This document shows, piece by piece, positions 1 to 5,400 of a stretch of 5,400 bases of DNA. The notes beneath the pieces are model-generated. The model was given only the letters and a program-made list of their open reading frames with translations. It made no database searches and was not told the DNA's origin. The translations under genes were made by a program, and so were the position numbers. Numbering within the stretch: the first letter of the stretch is position 1; every line of letters starts with the position of its first letter. Source of the DNA: a bacterium (lineage in GTDB: Bacteria; CAIJMQ01; JAADFP01); contig JALUVB010000289.1 in the NCBI GenBank assembly GCA_027021085.1, forward strand, positions 1 to 5,400, given 5' to 3'.

Positions 1-35
1 TAGACCATAGACTGTAGACTATAGACCTTAGACGG
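1..35 (+). repeat. Tandem heptanucleotide repeat, TAGACNN x5
   Basis: TAGAC recurs at positions 1, 8, 15, 22 and 29, an exact 7-bp period with the last two bases of each unit variable (CA, TG, TA, CT, GG). The array probably continues left beyond the window. It ends in TAGACGGGGAGAA, almost the same exit sequence as the copy at 2121. Heptameric short tandem repeats are known in intergenic DNA of some bacteria (the STRR repeats of cyanobacteria). The period is seen directly; no function is inferred. Confidence 0.85.
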
Positions 36-41
36 GGAGAA

Positions 42-117: not shown

Positions 118-160
118 GGCTAATGCTCACCTTCAGCGGCGGCTATTTGCCGTCCGCTGA
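118..160 (-). other. Possible degenerate attC remnant with hairpin at the end of the composite ORF
   Basis: The arms TCAGCGGCGG (133-142) and CCGTCCGCTGA (150-160) form a 10-bp stem with one bulged base and a 7-nt loop. The stem covers the stop codon and last residues of the upstream ORF. Outside the stem lies GCTCACCT (125-132), the same octamer found at the matching place in the clear attC (723-730). This placement, at a cassette gene's 3' end with a stop codon inside a palindrome, is typical of attC. However, the conserved AAC/GTT core triplets are not recognisable, so it could instead be a decayed site or an unrelated hairpin. No T-tract follows, so it does not look like an intrinsic terminator. 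Confidence 0.35.
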
Positions 161-424
161 AATGATTACTTCCCAATATGTATTTACACTCGGAATACCA
201 TGAATATTTTCAGAATAAAAATTATTGCCAAGTTGTCTTGTATTAGGCAAATTATCAATTATTTGTGAAATTTGCCCGTGCATTTGTGCGGTTGTTTGAT
301 TTGGACCTGCAAAATGAATATATACATCGGAATGATGTTTTATTAGTTGTGATATTACAAAATGAGCATCAAATACATATCCTACGGGAATCTGTCTTAT
401 TATTTGGCTTACTGCATTATTCAT
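143..424 (-). CDS. Hypothetical protein, 93 aa (probable internal start of the composite ORF)
   Basis: Met88 of the longer frame is preceded by AAAGGAGGAG with 8 nt before the ATG. This is the strongest ribosome-binding site in the window, so a separate 93-aa protein starting here is likely. It begins MNNAVSQIIRQIPVGYVFDA and is rich in polar residues. There is no signal peptide or membrane segment, and the central part (NIHGIPSVNTYWEV) looks like a compact soluble domain. I do not recognise the family and assign no function. Its last codons and stop lie inside a hairpin that may be an attC remnant. It is co-transcribed, at most, with the DUF262 fragment and the nuclease gene upstream. Confidence 0.6.
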   Translation of the reverse strand: MNNAVSQIIRQIPVGYVFDAHFVISQLIKHHSDVYIHFAGPNQTTAQMHGQISQIIDNLPNTRQLGNNFYSENIHGIPSVNTYWEVIISADGK

Positions 425-685
425 AAGATTTTCTCCTCCTTTCTTGATAACATTTGTCACATATGTGTTGAGATAATACCAAGAGAATTTATCAATTAGC
501 TTCTCAATCTCAATATCGCAATCCTTATATCGTACATATTCAATATTTAACTTATAGAAAATATCATCAAGCAATCTTTTGACAGGTGCATCAGTCCATT
601 TATATTGCCTTTGATAAAAGTCAATATGGTAGGTGGTATTTGCAAATACCATGTCGATATTTTGTTTATCTGGCGTTACATCCAT
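143..685 (-). CDS. Composite ORF: truncated DUF262 (GmrSD-like) N-terminus joined in frame to an unrecognised small protein
   Basis: This is a 180-aa open frame. Residues 18-46 carry the DUF262 N-terminal signature (YHIDFYQRQYKW followed by LLDDI), and residues 69-80 (SWYYLNTYVTNVI) match the stretch that in DUF262 proteins leads into the DGQQR motif. That motif is absent: after residue 80 the frame passes into sequence encoding a Shine-Dalgarno element and a new start at Met88. DUF262 proteins, including the GmrS part of GmrSD modification-dependent restriction enzymes, are several hundred residues long. The fragment therefore lacks the core NTP-binding/hydrolysis motif and is very unlikely to be an active restriction subunit. 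The start ATG has GAGAGGA 8 nt upstream and lies about 25 bp after the attC core, as in a cassette gene. Translation could give the whole 180 aa, or mainly the internal 93-aa protein. Confidence 0.7.
   Translation of the reverse strand: MDVTPDKQNIDMVFANTTYHIDFYQRQYKWTDAPVKRLLDDIFYKLNIEYVRYKDCDIEIEKLIDKFSWYYLNTYVTNVIKKGGENLMNNAVSQIIRQIPVGYVFDAHFVISQLIKHHSDVYIHFAGPNQTTAQMHGQISQIIDNLPNTRQLGNNFYSENIHGIPSVNTYWEVIISADGK
425..685 (-). pseudogene. DUF262 protein, N-terminal fragment lacking the DGQQR motif
   Basis: The region encodes about 80 recognisable residues of a DUF262 protein (YQRQYKW at 24-30, LLDDI at 38-42, WYYLNTYVTN at 69-78) and then stops resembling the family just before the expected VDGQQRLTTL. 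The break is a sequence junction, not a frameshift: the frame stays open but runs through the ribosome-binding site of the next gene. This looks like a deletion or recombination that removed the rest of the gene. It is an interpretation of the first part of the 180-aa frame, listed separately so that the loss is visible. Confidence 0.6.
433..442 (-). promoter_or_regulatory. Strong Shine-Dalgarno deciding the internal start at 424
   Basis: The minus strand reads AAAGGAGGAG, then 8 nt (AAAATCTT), then ATG at 424. Both match and spacing are close to ideal, inside what would otherwise be coding sequence for residues 82-85 of the long frame. Confidence 0.8.
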
Positions 686-693
686 GCTTATTG

Positions 694-700
694 TCCTCTC
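694..700 (-). promoter_or_regulatory. Ribosome-binding site for the start at 685
   Basis: The minus strand reads GAGAGGA, then 8 nt, then ATG. It lies between the attC core end (710) and the DUF262 fragment, so this leader belongs to the second cassette. Confidence 0.65.
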
Positions 701-709
701 GGTTTAAAT

Positions 710-843
710 ACATAACGACAAAGCTCACCTGCCCCAAGGGAACTGTGACCTTCGCAAAATTGACTTTCCCTCGCATAAACTCCAGGCTACGCTCACCCGG
801 AAACGCTACCGCCCTTGGGGTCAGGTGAAGCGCCTTGTTCGGC
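710..843 (-). other. attC-type recombination site (59-base element), 134 bp
   Basis: On the minus strand the site opens with R'' GCCGAAC (843-837) and closes with R' GTTATGT (716-710); crossover would fall after G716. The halves between them pair. CCCCAAGGG (732-740) is perfectly complementary to 812-820, CACCTG (726-731) pairs with CAGGTG (822-827), and GCT pairs with AGC further out. Single unpaired bases at 821 and 828 resemble the extrahelical bases of attC. The ~70-nt loop (741-811) corresponds to a variable terminal structure. A length of 134 bp is within the known attC range and similar to the long Vibrio-type repeats. It starts a few bases after the nuclease stop codon, the normal place in a cassette. 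One consensus position in each core box deviates. Confidence 0.8.
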
Positions 844-1924
844 GTAGCCGTTCATTTTAATTCATGATTTTCTATGGTTTTTGCTACCTTTTCAAGCCAG
901 CAAATAAGGGTATGAATTTCTGAACTCTCAAATTTTCGGTTTACCAATACCTTGAGTTCTCTGCCTGCTGGCTGAAATAGCCCTGTTGCCTCTGCCTCTT
1001 GCCATAGTAGATTCATTTCTGATTCAGGCACGTCCAATTTACTCAGTAGTCCGCCTCTGCCGACAAGAGCCGTGTAAACCGATTGCTGGAATACAGCTTT
1101 AGGTGGATAACCGTAGCAAATGGCAACATGCACCCCATTCTTATCTACGTTCATTGAGAATCCTTTTGTTCCCCAGTGGACAGGGAATGAATTCTCGGCT
1201 GCGAAATTGAGGATTTGCCCCAAAACTTCTTTGCCGTTCTCATCCAAAGACTCCATAAATGAATCTTGCGAGACAATAGGCAAAGCTCCTGAAGTTATTT
1301 GTTTTATTTTTGATGGTTCTTTTCCAACTACAATGTCATATGATAAAAGATGCTTGCCTCCATTGCCTTGAAAATATGAAAATTCAAGACATGTCACCCT
1401 CATTCCTTTTCTGCGCAGGAAAGATGCTGTTTGCCTAATTTCTCCAGTGATACGCTGGCCAACAAGCACAATACGTTGATCTTTATTGAATGAAACTGCT
1501 TCATCAGGAGCAAGCTCAAAGTAATTTCGATGATAGCTTGATAGATTTAGACCTTCATCATTTACGTAACGTTGAAGAATTTTTTCAAGACTATCTGTGT
1601 CAAGCTCTTCAACAAATGATGCATATTCCAATGCTTGAGCCAAAGTATCTCGGGGTGTTCTATCCCGTTTCAGTTCAATTACGACTGTATTCCCCTCCCT
1701 ATCAATTCCAAGAAGGTCAATTATGCTGCCGAGATTTGTTGTGACCTGACGACCGATAATGAGAAGTTTACCATCTTCAAGAATATCGTCTGAGTTATTT
1801 TCAAGCCAATTTTCCAATACCGATTCCTCATGATCGACATGGAAATGGGTTTTAGAGAACTCCTCAAATTTGCCATCTTCTTTGATGCTGAATATTCTCA
1901 TTGGTCAGTTATTTTATCGCCGAA
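716..1924 (-). mobile_element. Integron-type gene cassette carrying the NucS-like nuclease gene
   Basis: The predicted cassette runs on the minus strand from TT at 1924 to G716 (1209 bp). It holds a 23-nt leader, one gene and its attC. The junction before the gene reads GTTCGGCG (1925-1918) and the attC begins CGCCGAAC (844-837). These 8 bp are exact inverted complements, as expected when the cassette's own start completes its attC R' box in the circular form. The R' box now next to the attC (GTTATGT) pairs less well, because it belongs to the following cassette. No integrase is seen, so this would be an integrase-less (CALIN-like or single-attC) element. The alternative, short inverted repeats of another mobile element, fits the long internal palindrome less well. 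Confidence 0.7.
852..1901 (-). CDS. NucS/DUF91-like PD-(D/E)XK endonuclease-domain protein
   Basis: The 349-aa protein has an N-terminal half (about 1-115) resembling the catalytic domain of NucS/EndoMS. Visible elements are an upstream acidic helix (HEESVLENWL, 24-33), GSIIDLLGIDREG with candidate metal ligand D62, VVIELKR with E76 and K78, and QALEYAS with Q89 and Y93. This is the D...ExK...QxxxY order of the PD-(D/E)XK fold. It lacks the N-terminal DNA-binding domain of true NucS, so mismatch repair by NucS is not implied. Residues ~205-345 form a second domain I do not recognise (WGTKGFSMNVD, ICYGYPP, AGRELKVL). The start fits the family N-terminus (MRIFSI) although no Shine-Dalgarno is visible, which is common in cassette genes. 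It is the single gene of a cassette, transcribed from the promoter at 1960-1988. A DNA-cleaving defence or repair role is inferred, not shown. Confidence 0.85.
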   Translation of the reverse strand: MRIFSIKEDGKFEEFSKTHFHVDHEESVLENWLENNSDDILEDGKLLIIGRQVTTNLGSIIDLLGIDREGNTVVIELKRDRTPRDTLAQALEYASFVEELDTDSLEKILQRYVNDEGLNLSSYHRNYFELAPDEAVSFNKDQRIVLVGQRITGEIRQTASFLRRKGMRVTCLEFSYFQGNGGKHLLSYDIVVGKEPSKIKQITSGALPIVSQDSFMESLDENGKEVLGQILNFAAENSFPVHWGTKGFSMNVDKNGVHVAICYGYPPKAVFQQSVYTALVGRGGLLSKLDVPESEMNLLWQEAEATGLFQPAGRELKVLVNRKFESSEIHTLICWLEKVAKTIENHELK

Positions 1925-1959
1925 CATTCTCTTTTATATTATTCCAATCTACTGTCTAA

Positions 1960-1988
1960 GTTATAAATTAAAAAAAGAGGCTTGTCAA
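1960..1988 (-). promoter_or_regulatory. Sigma70-type promoter upstream of the cassette (Pc-like)
   Basis: The minus strand has TTGACA (1988-1983), a 17-bp spacer, and TATAAC (1965-1960): a perfect -35 and a -10 with one mismatch. Initiation would be expected near 1952, giving a leader of about 50 nt to the nuclease ATG. The promoter lies outside the cassette boundary at 1925, like the Pc promoter that expresses captured cassettes in integrons. No other promoter is needed for the two accessory genes downstream. Confidence 0.75.
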
Positions 1989-2120
1989 ATTTTTTCTGCA
2001 ATATCTGCCGGACAGAATGTAAATAATGCAGTATAAGTATAGAAATTTTACTATTATTACGCGATGTGCGACTTTTTTTAAAGATACCTTAAACTTAGTA
2101 GCGGGTGGGGAAGGGCATGT

Positions 2121-2148
2121 TAGACCTTAGACTTGAGACTTTAGACGG
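2121..2148 (+). repeat. Tandem heptanucleotide repeat, TAGACNN x4
   Basis: Units start at 2121, 2128, 2135 and 2142 with an exact 7-bp period; the third is GAGAC instead of TAGAC. It ends TAGACGGGGGGAA, nearly the same as the exit of the copy at 1-35, so the two are members of one dispersed family. Confidence 0.8.
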
Positions 2149-2168
2149 GGGGAAGTGGGCAGGCGGGA

Positions 2169-2240: not shown

Positions 2241-2310
2241 ATTCACTGCTTACTATCCTAATCCCCTCGCTACTATCAACCCGCTACTTACTACTGTTCA
2301 CTGTTTACTA
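2241..2310 (-). repeat. Heptad repeat YAGTRAR, inverted relative to the copy at 42-83
   Basis: Read on the minus strand from 2310 the units are TAGTAAA, CAGTGAA, CAGTAGT, AAGTAGC and so on, ending with TAGTAAG and CAGTGAA. They are mostly in 7-bp register with some diverged units in the middle. The first unit supplies the TAG stop codon of the alcohol dehydrogenase, so the array begins right at the gene's end. Confidence 0.65.
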
Positions 2311-3303
2311 AAACTTGAGGACGGCGGAGGCTTTGAGCTGGCTGGTTTTTAATTTTTGCAGCACCTGGTTTGCTTCCTGCCAGGGGAAGACTTCTACTAC
2401 GGTTTTTAGCGGGGTTTTTCCTGCTATATCCAGTAGCTCCCGAACATCTTCCCGGGTGGAGTTGGCTACGCTTCTTATTATTCTTTCCTGGTAGAGCAGG
2501 GGGTACTCTAAGGAAGGGATAGGTGTCATGTAAATCCCGGCCAGGGTTAATGTCCCGCCTTTTTCTATGTTTCCTAAAGCTATGGGCACTAATTCTCCTG
2601 CCGGAGCAAAGATTATAGCTCCGTCAAGCAGTTCGGGAGGGGAAGAATCGGGTTTACCCACCCAATCCGCCCCCAGTTCCCTGGCTACTTCCTGGTGTTT
2701 TTCTGAACGGGTGAAGACGAAGACACGCAGGTTAAAGTATTTTGCTATCTGGAGCACTATGTGTCCCGAAGCGCCGAAACCAAATATTCCCAGGGTTTCG
2801 CCTCTGAGTAGGGGGGTAAGTTTGAGAGCCCGGTACCCGATGACTCCTCCGCAAAGCAGGGGTGCGACATTTTCTCCCGGATATTTTTCGGGGAGCAGGT
2901 ACACGGAGTCCTGGTCTGCCACTGCGTATTCTGCGTATCCGCCGTTTACGTGGAACCCGGTAAATTGGGCTTTATTGCATAGATTTTCTTTGCCTTTTCG
3001 GCAGAATTTACATCTCCCACAGGAAGAGTAAAACCAGGGAATTCCCACCCGTTCTCCTGTTTTCCATCTGGTTACTTTCTCTCCCGTTTTTTCTATTTTG
3101 CCTACTACCTGATGGCCGGGAATTACCGGGTAAGAAGGAGGGATAATTTCTCCTTCTACCAGATGCAGGTCTGTATGGCATACTCCGCAATATTCTACTT
3201 TTATTAATACTTCCTTTTCTTTTGGCCGGGGAGTGGGGATTTCCTCTTCCTGCAGAGGAGATGTTTCTATGGGAGCGGGTTTATGAAGGAGTAATGCTTT
3301 CAT
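2308..3303 (-). CDS. Zinc-dependent alcohol dehydrogenase (MDR superfamily)
   Basis: The 331-aa enzyme, of usual length for the family, would oxidise alcohols or reduce aldehydes with NAD(P) in the cytoplasm. The GroES-like N-domain carries the catalytic zinc site: C42 (CGVCHTD, 39-45), H64 (PGHQVVG) and C151 (LLCGGVIGYRAL). A structural zinc lobe has four cysteines, C95, C98, C101 and C109. GFHVNGGYAEYAVAD (117-131) is typical of the family. The Rossmann domain shows GFGASG (175-180). The usual GHE is GHQ here, a change I believe occurs in this subgroup. The overall pattern resembles the adh_fam_2 group; the substrate cannot be read from sequence. The ATG overlaps the end of xseA by 23 nt in another frame, which suggests translational coupling, with only a weak purine-rich upstream element. 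The gene ends in a heptad repeat. Confidence 0.93.
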   Translation of the reverse strand: MKALLLHKPAPIETSPLQEEEIPTPRPKEKEVLIKVEYCGVCHTDLHLVEGEIIPPSYPVIPGHQVVGKIEKTGEKVTRWKTGERVGIPWFYSSCGRCKFCRKGKENLCNKAQFTGFHVNGGYAEYAVADQDSVYLLPEKYPGENVAPLLCGGVIGYRALKLTPLLRGETLGIFGFGASGHIVLQIAKYFNLRVFVFTRSEKHQEVARELGADWVGKPDSSPPELLDGAIIFAPAGELVPIALGNIEKGGTLTLAGIYMTPIPSLEYPLLYQERIIRSVANSTREDVRELLDIAGKTPLKTVVEVFPWQEANQVLQKLKTSQLKASAVLKF

Positions 3304-4543
3304 CTTCTTTTTTCAAAACCTGGCAGAAAAGGTTTCCTTTCCAGAGCTTCACCTTAACCTCTGCGCCTTTTTTTACTTCTCTGCTCTCCCGCAGGATTTT
3401 CCCGGATGGTAATAGAAAGGTTATGCTGTAGCCTCTTTCCAGGACTTTGAGGGGAGAGAGTGCTTCCAGTTTCCCGGCCCAGCTGGCAAGTTTTTCCTGG
3501 CTGTTACGGGTTATGGTTTGCATTCTCCTGAATAAATGCAGGTGGAGTTCTGCGAGTTTTTCTTTTTCCCTTTCCAGGGTTTTCCGGGGATGCTGGAGCA
3601 GGAGAGCACGGGTAAGTTTCTGTAGTTTTTCCTGCATGTTTATCAGTTCCAGGAACATGCGGGAATTTAATCTGTTCAGGGAATCTTCCAATCTTTCTAC
3701 AAGTTTCTCCATCTCCACTACTACCATTTCTCCTGCTGCGGAGGGTGTGGGAGCTCTTTTGTCAGCCACAAAGTCACTTATACAGTAATCCTGTTCATGC
3801 CCTACGGCAGAGATGATAGGAATGCGGGAAGTGGCAATAGCCCTGGCAACTGTTTCCTCGTTAAATGCCCAGAGGTCTTCTACGCTTCCGCCTCCTCTTC
3901 CCACGATTATTACTTCTGCTTCCTTCATCTGGTTGAGCACCTGGATTCCGTGGGCTATTTCCTCGGCTGCTTCTTCTCCCTGTACTCTTACCGGGTAGAT
4001 AATGATATGCACGCGGGGGAAGCGGCGGGTGATGACTTTTATCATGTCTTTTACGGCAGCACCTGTGGGAGAGGTAACCAGCCCTATGGTGCGTGGATAG
4101 GGCGGTAGGGGTTTTTTCATGGCTTCTTCAAACAATCCTTCCTTCTCAAGTTTTTCCTTGAGCTGCAGGTAGCGGGTGTAGAGAATGCCTATTCCCTGCT
4201 TTTCTATTTCTTCGCCTATTAGCTGGTAGATTCCCCTTCCGGTATATACTCTTAGTCTTCCCCATACCACTACCTTCATGCCTTCTTCCATGCGGATTTT
4301 TAAGCGGGAGGCGGCTTCCCTGAAAAAGACTGCACGTAATTGGGCAAAGGGGTCTTTGAGGGTAAAGTAAATGTGGCCGGTGCTTGCCGCACGCAGGTTT
4401 GATATTTCTCCTTCCACGCCTATGCGAAGGGGGAAGTTGCCTTCTATGAGACTCTGGATGTTTCGGGTAAGCTCGTAAACGGTGAAAATGCGTTCTTTTT
4501 TTGCAGGGTGGGGAGAGAGGGAGAAGAGGTTTTTTTCTAACAT
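3281..4543 (-). CDS. xseA: Exodeoxyribonuclease VII large subunit
   Basis: The 420-aa protein is the catalytic subunit of exonuclease VII, which degrades single-stranded DNA from both ends into oligonucleotides during repair. An N-terminal OB-fold (about 18-115, with EGEISNLRAASTGHIYFTLKD) is followed by the catalytic domain: GLVTSPTGAAVKD (154-166), VGRGGGSVEDLWAFN (214-228) and SAVGHEQDYCISDFVADKRAPTPSAA (245-270). A long helical, coiled-coil-like region (~275-360), which in the family binds small subunits, precedes the conserved LKVLERGYSIT (365-375). Length is normal and all hallmark motifs are intact. No clear Shine-Dalgarno precedes the ATG; an in-frame stop lies six codons upstream, so it cannot extend far. 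The small subunit gene xseB, often directly downstream, is replaced here by the overlapping alcohol dehydrogenase and must lie elsewhere. Confidence 0.97.
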   Translation of the reverse strand: MLEKNLFSLSPHPAKKERIFTVYELTRNIQSLIEGNFPLRIGVEGEISNLRAASTGHIYFTLKDPFAQLRAVFFREAASRLKIRMEEGMKVVVWGRLRVYTGRGIYQLIGEEIEKQGIGILYTRYLQLKEKLEKEGLFEEAMKKPLPPYPRTIGLVTSPTGAAVKDMIKVITRRFPRVHIIIYPVRVQGEEAAEEIAHGIQVLNQMKEAEVIIVGRGGGSVEDLWAFNEETVARAIATSRIPIISAVGHEQDYCISDFVADKRAPTPSAAGEMVVVEMEKLVERLEDSLNRLNSRMFLELINMQEKLQKLTRALLLQHPRKTLEREKEKLAELHLHLFRRMQTITRNSQEKLASWAGKLEALSPLKVLERGYSITFLLPSGKILRESREVKKGAEVKVKLWKGNLFCQVLKKEDESITPS

Positions 4544-4602
4544 GGGATATTTTACCGCTTAGGCATTTTGAAATGCAAATGGCGCTGATGTAATCCTAAT
4601 TT
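4544..4602. other. Short comF-xseA spacer with a minor hairpin
   Basis: This 59-nt spacer contains GCATT/AATGC (4563-4576), a 5-bp stem with a 4-nt loop. There is no T-tract, so termination is not indicated and comF and xseA could share a transcript. No promoter is clear. Confidence 0.4.
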
Positions 4603-5370
4603 TCACTCTCCCCGTGCCAGGGTGAGAACGTATACTTTTACTGCCCCGTTTTTCTTTAGCTGTTTTGCACATTCATTTATGGTGGCTCCTGTGGTGAAGA
4701 CATCGTCTACCAGGAGCACTTTGCTCCCTTTAAGTTTTTTGTCCGGTTTTACCCGGTAGGCACCTCTGACATTGCTTTTTCTTTGCCTGGCCGGGAGTCC
4801 GGTCTGGGAAGGAATTCTTTTTGGTTTGCGAAGGAATGCTGTGATTACGCTTTTGCCGGTTTTCCTGCCCAGGTGCTTTGCCAGAAGATAGGTTTGGTGA
4901 TAGCCCCTTTTGATGCGGTCGAGAAAGTGTTCGGGGACCGGTATGATGAAATCGCTTTCCTGGAGTAGTCTTTCCTTTATATACACCTGGAAGAGTTTTT
5001 GGCTCAGAAATGCAGAGAGATAAAATTTACCATGGTACTTGTAATGGTGAATTATATCCCGCCATTTTCCTTCGTAAATAGCCGCGGAGCGGAGCAGGTC
5101 AAAGGAGTTTTTCCTTTGCTTACATTCGTTGCACAGCCCGGAGGCAAGGGGCCTGCCGCAGATTTCGCAGATTGTTTCCCGGGTTAAAAAGATTACTTCT
5201 TCCTCGCAGGAGAAACATACGGGATGAGGGTAAGAGAGGGGCAAAGCCGTTTGGCAGATAATGCAGTGATATGGATAGACGAGAGATAAAACCTTACGCC
5301 AGAGCATGGGAAACCCGGAAAGAGGTGTGAGTTGCTCCCGATGTCCATCGGGATGAGTTGTTGGTTTCAC
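4603..5370 (-). CDS. ComF family amidophosphoribosyltransferase-like protein
   Basis: The 255-aa protein belongs to the ComF/GntX family. It has an N-terminal zinc-ribbon region with four CxxC pairs (C36/C39, C52/C55, C68/C71, C80/C83) and a C-terminal type I phosphoribosyltransferase domain. That domain shows IIPVPEH (142-148), RIKRGYHQTYLLAKHL (152-167) and the PRPP-binding loop KVLLVDDVFTTGAT (217-230). In naturally competent bacteria ComF helps import or process single-stranded DNA in the cytosol; family members also occur in non-competent species, so competence is not proven here. The start used is GTG at 5370, preceded by GGGAGGA 3 nt upstream. An alternative ATG at 5307 (Met22) would remove 21 residues that look unconserved and contain a perfect DNA palindrome, but it has no visible ribosome-binding site. 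It is the first gene of the comF-xseA-adh run seen here. Confidence 0.92.
   Translation of the reverse strand: MKPTTHPDGHREQLTPLSGFPMLWRKVLSLVYPYHCIICQTALPLSYPHPVCFSCEEEVIFLTRETICEICGRPLASGLCNECKQRKNSFDLLRSAAIYEGKWRDIIHHYKYHGKFYLSAFLSQKLFQVYIKERLLQESDFIIPVPEHFLDRIKRGYHQTYLLAKHLGRKTGKSVITAFLRKPKRIPSQTGLPARQRKSNVRGAYRVKPDKKLKGSKVLLVDDVFTTGATINECAKQLKKNGAVKVYVLTLARGE
5336..5353. repeat. Perfect 8-bp inverted repeat in the 5' end of comF
   Basis: TCCCGATG (5336-5343) and CATCGGGA (5346-5353) are exact complements separated by 2 nt. It encodes residues 6-12 of the GTG-started product, or lies in the leader if Met22 is the true start. It could be a dispersed short palindrome or an operator/hairpin affecting translation. 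Confidence 0.6.
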
Positions 5371-5380: not shown

Positions 5381-5400
5381 AGTCTAACGTCTAAGGTCTA
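5380..5400 (-). repeat. Tandem heptanucleotide repeat, TAGACNN x3 (inverted copy, runs off the window)
   Basis: On the minus strand TAGAC starts at 5400, 5393 and 5386 (TAGACCT, TAGACGT, TAGACTG), an exact 7-bp period. It is inverted relative to the copies at 1 and 2121 and directly precedes the comF ribosome-binding site, so it lies in the comF leader or promoter region. Confidence 0.8.

Follow-up and report, generated by a model that had tools for sequence, protein, structure and literature searches.

Integron-type cassette arrays with no detected integrase lie behind promoter-bearing leaders in an uncultured bacterial class

A nuclease cassette and its attC site

The window analyzed here (5,400 bp) is the entire contig C289 of G000, a 94% complete MAG (1.93 Mb, 307 contigs). 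Its main genes all lie on the minus strand, in the order ComF-family gene, xseA, dehydrogenase gene, a gap occupied by lineage repeats, nuclease gene, palindrome and a short chimeric reading frame. The host genes, those of an alcohol dehydrogenase, the exonuclease VII large subunit and a ComF family protein, span 2308-5370; the adh-xseA order is also kept in G002, one of six genomes of the same class used for comparison (G001 to G006; the next compared genomes share only the domain). A lineage-specific intergenic repeat (2121-2154, plus strand) marks the border of the array on the host-gene side, and its partner copy (8-41, plus strand) marks the opposite border. Simple diverged repeats of the TAGACTATAGACC and CAGTAAACAGTGAACAG types occupy intergenic gaps throughout the lineage and flank arrays, in the window at 8-80, 2121-2310 and 5381-5400 as well as on other contigs. 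We judged contamination of the array contigs by foreign DNA unlikely, because they bear lineage repeats and host genes shared with other contigs of G000 and of its sister species G001.

The nuclease gene (852-1901, minus strand) encodes a 349-aa protein with a NucS_C domain. It is carried by a 1,209-bp cassette (cassette 1; 716-1924, minus strand) that extends from the TT of a leader GTT to the G of the attC R' box, its 5' boundary being the point where homology to a copy in a Thiotrichaceae MAG ends. The N-terminal half of the protein matches the PADLOC defense candidate PDC-S11 (E 6e-41, residues 18-197 of 349 aligned), a family whose role in defense is a candidate assignment.

The gene is followed by an integron attC site (710-843, 134 nt, minus strand), as the initial annotation had proposed and as sequence, fold, covariance model and R'' rule all indicate. 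The site is an R''-L''-L'-R' hairpin with a GTT core and a conserved fold, composed of R'' GCCGAAC (843-837), L'' AAGGCGCTTCACCTG, a variable loop, L' CAGGTGAGC and R' GTTATGT (716-710). The 134-bp palindrome and its boxes lie where they had been placed, but not directly after the nuclease stop codon (854-852, minus strand), since the attC begins 8 nt past it. The complementarity claimed between R'' plus its flanking base and the 5' end of the cassette is exact: GTTCGGCG at 1925-1918 complements CGCCGAAC at 844-837 on the minus strand. When folded as a single strand, 710-843 outperformed all 200 dinucleotide shuffles (z -3.48). We also searched with a covariance model trained on 15 class 1 integron resistance-cassette attC sites from plasmids and one environmental attC, with hand-set R/L pairing and no site from the window in the training set. 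The window attC scored 20.7 bits over all 73 model positions (E 0.006 in 40 kb), a value above noise that is modest because most of the long loop falls outside the model; in about 36 kb of other contigs the same search returned nothing above 11 bits. When the genome was searched by BLAST with this attC as the sole query, the matches were just short and weak, hence the need for a structural model. The attC had no blastn match among plasmids at E 1, and an Rfam search of the window returned no match.

Two further features had escaped the initial annotation, namely a promoter-bearing leader at 2002-1923 and a second cassette. Cassette 2 (126-715, minus strand; an inferred length of about 590 bp) begins with TTATGT and carries an N-terminal fragment of a DUF262/GmrSD protein followed by a 93-aa ORF, which has its own ribosome-binding site and starts at about 424. 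It ends in a degenerate attC (120-181, minus strand) matched partially by the covariance model at 14.1 bits, with R'' ACATATT, a stem TTTCAGCGGACGGC..GCCGCCGCTGAA and R' ATTAGCC. The 5' end of the cassette, TTATGTATTTA, is complementary at 12/13 nt to 189-177, just before this attC (inverted repeat I18). We rejected the reading of 143-685 as a single 180-aa protein: the N-terminal 80 residues match DUF262 proteins, whereas the last 93 are the separate ORF, which has a stand-alone 99-aa relative in G005, making the frame a chance in-frame fusion. Neither the nuclease nor this second window gene had relatives among the viral contigs searched. Other array cassettes encode a CAP12/Pycsar-type TIR protein (PDC-S35), a second PDC-S11-like protein, and Phd/YefM-ParE and PIN-type toxin-antitoxin genes, and by these sequence matches the cargo likely serves in defense and stability.

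Cassette boundaries and recurrence in other phyla

The nuclease gene is present in eleven MAG contigs from several phyla. In the Thiotrichaceae copy (L023), where the nuclease ORF is 97.4% identical at the nucleotide level, the cassette has an attC on each side and belongs to an array of seven attC (25 to 48 bits) with at least four other cassettes. Homology between the window and L023 starts exactly at the leader GTT, the predicted G|TT crossover, passes the stop codon and ends within the first half of L''. The copies in PVC-group and Deltaproteobacteria MAGs are about 79-82% identical, and the PVC-group cassette (L024) is likewise flanked by attC on both sides; the nuclease cassette thus lies between attC sites in other arrays and other hosts.

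Past the first half of L'' the attC stems of the window and L023 differ. When window 710-843 is compared with L023 3667-3739, the ORF and R'' flank are at least 97% identical, whereas the stems belong to different types. Another L023 cassette (4750-4874) has a stem similar to the one in the window, which suggests an exchange of attC stems between sites. In two Deltaproteobacteria copies (L025 2517-3620 and L029 5001-6100) the nuclease cassette stops precisely at R'' (GCCGAAC or GCCGAA), and one of these is joined to a different ORF, a pattern that deletion of the attC hairpin at its base would leave.

The initial annotation had argued that the R'' of a cassette should fit the cassette's own 5' end better than it fits the R' of the same attC. 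Among 29 cassettes with a known upstream boundary, this prediction was borne out in 24, with two reversed and three ties. At the variable bases, 98/116 matched under this rule, compared with a permutation mean of 48.9 and a maximum of 71 in 20,000 permutations. The fit was 7/7 for cassette 1 of the window and 7/7 for first cassettes behind five leaders; it was poor (4-5 of 7) between leader and first cassette at C163a, G003 C12, G004 C10a and G004 C11. The rule confirms that G|TT crossovers delimit these genes, with an R'' that complements the 5' end of the cassette it belongs to, and that first cassettes join at the leader GTT. It also supports the second cassette in the window.

Leaders, further arrays and the search for an integrase

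The leader of the window (1923-2002, minus strand) combines a promoter with an attI-like end, ...ATATAAAAGAGAATGTT, and cassettes begin after its G (1925). Its promoter, of the sigma-70 type, consists of a -35 hexamer TTGACA (1983-1988, minus strand) and, after a 17-nt spacer, a -10 hexamer TATAAC (1960-1965, minus strand), with 37 nt from the end of the -10 to the end of the GTT. Homologous leaders precede the junctions on C140, C163 (two) and C287 as well as in the window, and another precedes an array in G001. All share one layout: TTGACA or TTGACG, a 17-nt spacer, a TATAAT-like hexamer, about 35 nt and an attI-like G|TT end such as ATATAAAAGAGAATGTT. The window leader is 81% identical to that of C287 over 97 nt and 68% identical to that of G001 over 135 nt, and pairwise comparisons of the copies gave E values from 4e-20 to 2e-4. 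At least 10 of 12 promoter bases are matched in 8/12 leaders and in 1.8% of background windows, and the promoter-to-GTT distance is 33-40 nt in most leaders.

A leader sequence model scored six copies at 58 to 69 bits, these being its training copies, and one more, in G001, at 38 bits; the rest were weak, and a genome-wide search of G000 gave no further strong copy. As the model was built from copies located near arrays, where the leader was first seen, the independent evidence consists of the pairwise similarity and of the fact that G000 has no strong copy elsewhere. G003 and G004, two congeneric species of a sister genus that differs from G000 in genus and family, have a different leader type with the same layout in at least four copies, and a third type lies upstream of the arrays at their C12/C11 locus. 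In the assembled genomes of the class the insertion point, a G|TT core to which first cassettes join, lies beside a promoter, as in attI, and has no intI next to it.

On C287 (L021 3193-3117 and 2612-2684), a leader copy that lacks the GTT precedes a hicBA-like pair and then a 10.5-bit attC remnant, probably a decayed cassette. The 38-bit copy of G001 (L141 2886-2953, on its contig C90) stands before an ordinary-looking reading frame with no detectable attC and could be an empty docking site or a host promoter. The G004 array contains a second copy of the leader together with the end of the cyclase gene that lies upstream (L103 8865-8953 versus 5103-5191), and such duplication may be a route by which docking sites multiply.

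The covariance model also found relatives of the window attC elsewhere in the genome, where the initial annotation had proposed to look for them: seven or more additional sites are spread over contigs C140, C163, C287 and C293 of G000, the last of which starts within an attC. C140 and C287 probably form one array, because both contigs end in the same sequence. Two or more attC without a nearby intI, the arrangement termed CALIN, are clear for C140/C287 and for C163; in the window the second attC is the degenerate one matched partially at 14.1 bits. In G007, an unrelated MAG that is 59% complete, the model gave ten matches over seven contigs (C17, C39, C73, C85, C2, C77 and C53), and no integron integrase scored above the cut-off.

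The absence of an integrase, noted by the initial annotation for the window, extends to the assembled genomes. TIGR02249 (integron integrase) had no match above its cut-off in G000 to G006. PF00589 identified exactly two tyrosine recombinases in each of G000, G003 and G004, and curated cut-offs identify the pairs of G000 and G004 as XerC and XerD. When these are matched to the integron-integrase model, the region of the IntI-specific insert is left out, and a real IntI used as a positive control scored 470 bits. The extra tyrosine recombinases of G001, G005 and G006 were inspected and are not IntI-like. A complete integron, with an intI that carries the IntI-specific extra domain, is therefore not present in these assemblies.

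Cassettes have been replaced at a fixed chromosomal locus. In G005 there is no array, and the genes for a cyclase and a sensor kinase are immediate neighbors. Between the same two genes, G004 carries 5.2 kb of leader and cassettes, and G003 carries a different cassette set, across two overlapping contigs; blastn found no cassette shared between G003 and G004 at this locus. The conserved chromosomal flank restarts with R' of the final attC. Orthologous loci in relatives thus differ in their cassettes, an outcome in favor of the initial annotation, which had made gene exchange between sites a touchstone of its reading. The empty site of G005 has no leader either, which suggests that leader and array arrived together or were lost together. 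For the window locus we found no empty counterpart in G001, which has no close homologue of the flanking dehydrogenase, or in G002, where the neighbor is different.

Origin of the arrays and relation to known integrons

Taken together, these observations are likely best explained by cassette arrays of the CALIN class that have no integrase of their own and occupy several attI-like docking sites with promoters, the IntI that served them having worked in trans or having been lost later. Circular cassettes would have been inserted successively by G|TT-specific, attC-directed recombination, at the attI-like end of a leader whose promoter would read into them, and each of the several chromosomal leaders in the genus would be a separate docking site. 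Recognition of the leader as attI, expression of the cassettes from its promoter and a trans-acting IntI are what we infer from the sequence features. The recombinase would most likely be an integron integrase, supplied by a transient element or since lost; an IntI working in trans can make use of CALINs (PMC9668308, PMC12444791).

An integrase could instead be present in these bacteria and missing from the MAGs, if repetitive integron contigs bin and assemble poorly, which is why archaeal MAG integrons are mostly recovered as CALINs (PMC9668308). It is possible that an intI gene lies on an unassembled or unbinned stretch, because the three array-rich genomes are MAGs (92-96% complete) and one array is itself split over two contigs, and C293 begins inside an attC. 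G004 speaks against this, with about 10 contigs, 92% completeness, two array loci and no IntI, as does the absence of IntI from all seven genomes, and we give this explanation a minority chance that deserves to be taken seriously. We regard as doubtful that the arrays are remnants of a normal chromosomal integron scattered by rearrangement, with intI deleted. CALINs are frequent, and degradation of integrons has been proposed as their source (PMC9024848); part of a cyclase-gene end is duplicated with a leader inside the G004 array, and the overlapping ends of C140 and C287 indicate that arrays can exceed what the contigs show. Against this, no intI remnant rises above the cut-off in any of the seven genomes, and the leader in G003 and G004 starts a few bases to about 25 nt past the cyclase stop, leaving no room for intI. 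The contents also differ between these two congeneric species, and cassette exchange thus continued after the loci were fixed.

The repeated leaders weigh on a third account, which we find improbable: ordinary CALINs arising by off-target insertion at attG-like GTT sites near strong host promoters and kept because they are expressed, so that the leaders would be host promoters and not attI. Integration at attG has been reported (Loot et al., 2024, as cited in PMC11023631 and PMC12444791), and the R2 leader model also weakly matches ordinary host promoters. The leaders, however, share homology that reaches far past the hexamers (up to 135 nt), their strong copies occur almost exclusively at arrays, the empty site of G005 has none, and a random GTT would not yield the constant distance of 33-40 nt from the promoter. 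There is very little to recommend movement of the cassettes by host XerC/XerD in place of IntI: no other tyrosine recombinases were found in G000, G003 and G004, but these are ordinary XerC/XerD by curated cut-off that leave the IntI-specific insert region unmatched, and the sites have standard integron anatomy. Finally, a palindrome directly 3' of a gene could be a terminator or another hairpin, a reading, like that of a chance palindrome, ruled out with near certainty by the shuffle fold test, the paired attC around the same gene in other phyla, the G|TT cassette boundaries and the R'' rule.

Returning to arrays at attI-like docking sites served from outside, a broader form of the proposal is a distributed integron in this uncultured class, in which many promoter-attI docking sites over the chromosome, with no resident integrase, would undergo ongoing cassette exchange by a visiting IntI or, less likely, by host XerC/XerD. 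We advance it tentatively and hold it to be rather unlikely. CALINs are usually seen as degraded remnants; here they lie behind a repeated leader with a promoter and an attI-like end, their contents change between close species at a fixed locus, and the class as a whole seems to be without the integrase. A search of the open-access literature turned up no earlier account of a promoter-attI leader repeated in genomes that lack intI. Should this picture hold, it would make a case that genomes can retain cassette docking sites while depending on an outside integrase, and the candidate defense cassettes (PDC-S11 and the PDC-S35 TIR protein) and toxin-antitoxin cassettes would tie the arrays to defense-gene traffic between phyla.

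A complete chromosomal integron consists of intI, Pc, attI and cassettes. The present arrays resemble it in the order of promoter, primary insertion point and cassettes, and differ in lacking intI and in having more than one copy of the Pc-attI part, several in all. With the CALINs defined by IntegronFinder (PMC9024848) they share attC-bounded chromosomal cassettes without a nearby intI; here, however, no intI was found anywhere in the genomes, several arrays occur per genome, each behind a homologous promoter-bearing leader, and contents at the same locus differ between congeneric species. In Xanthomonas, CALINs likewise occur at several conserved chromosomal loci, but in addition to an ancestral intI at ilvD, and the sections of that source on these off-locus arrays describe no repeated leader (PMC12444791); in the class studied here, intI was found in no genome. 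Insertion at attG, as summarized from Loot et al. (2024 Nat Microbiol) in PMC12444791, also places cassettes at G|TT outside the integron platform, whereas the insertion points reported here share a homologous leader and promoter.
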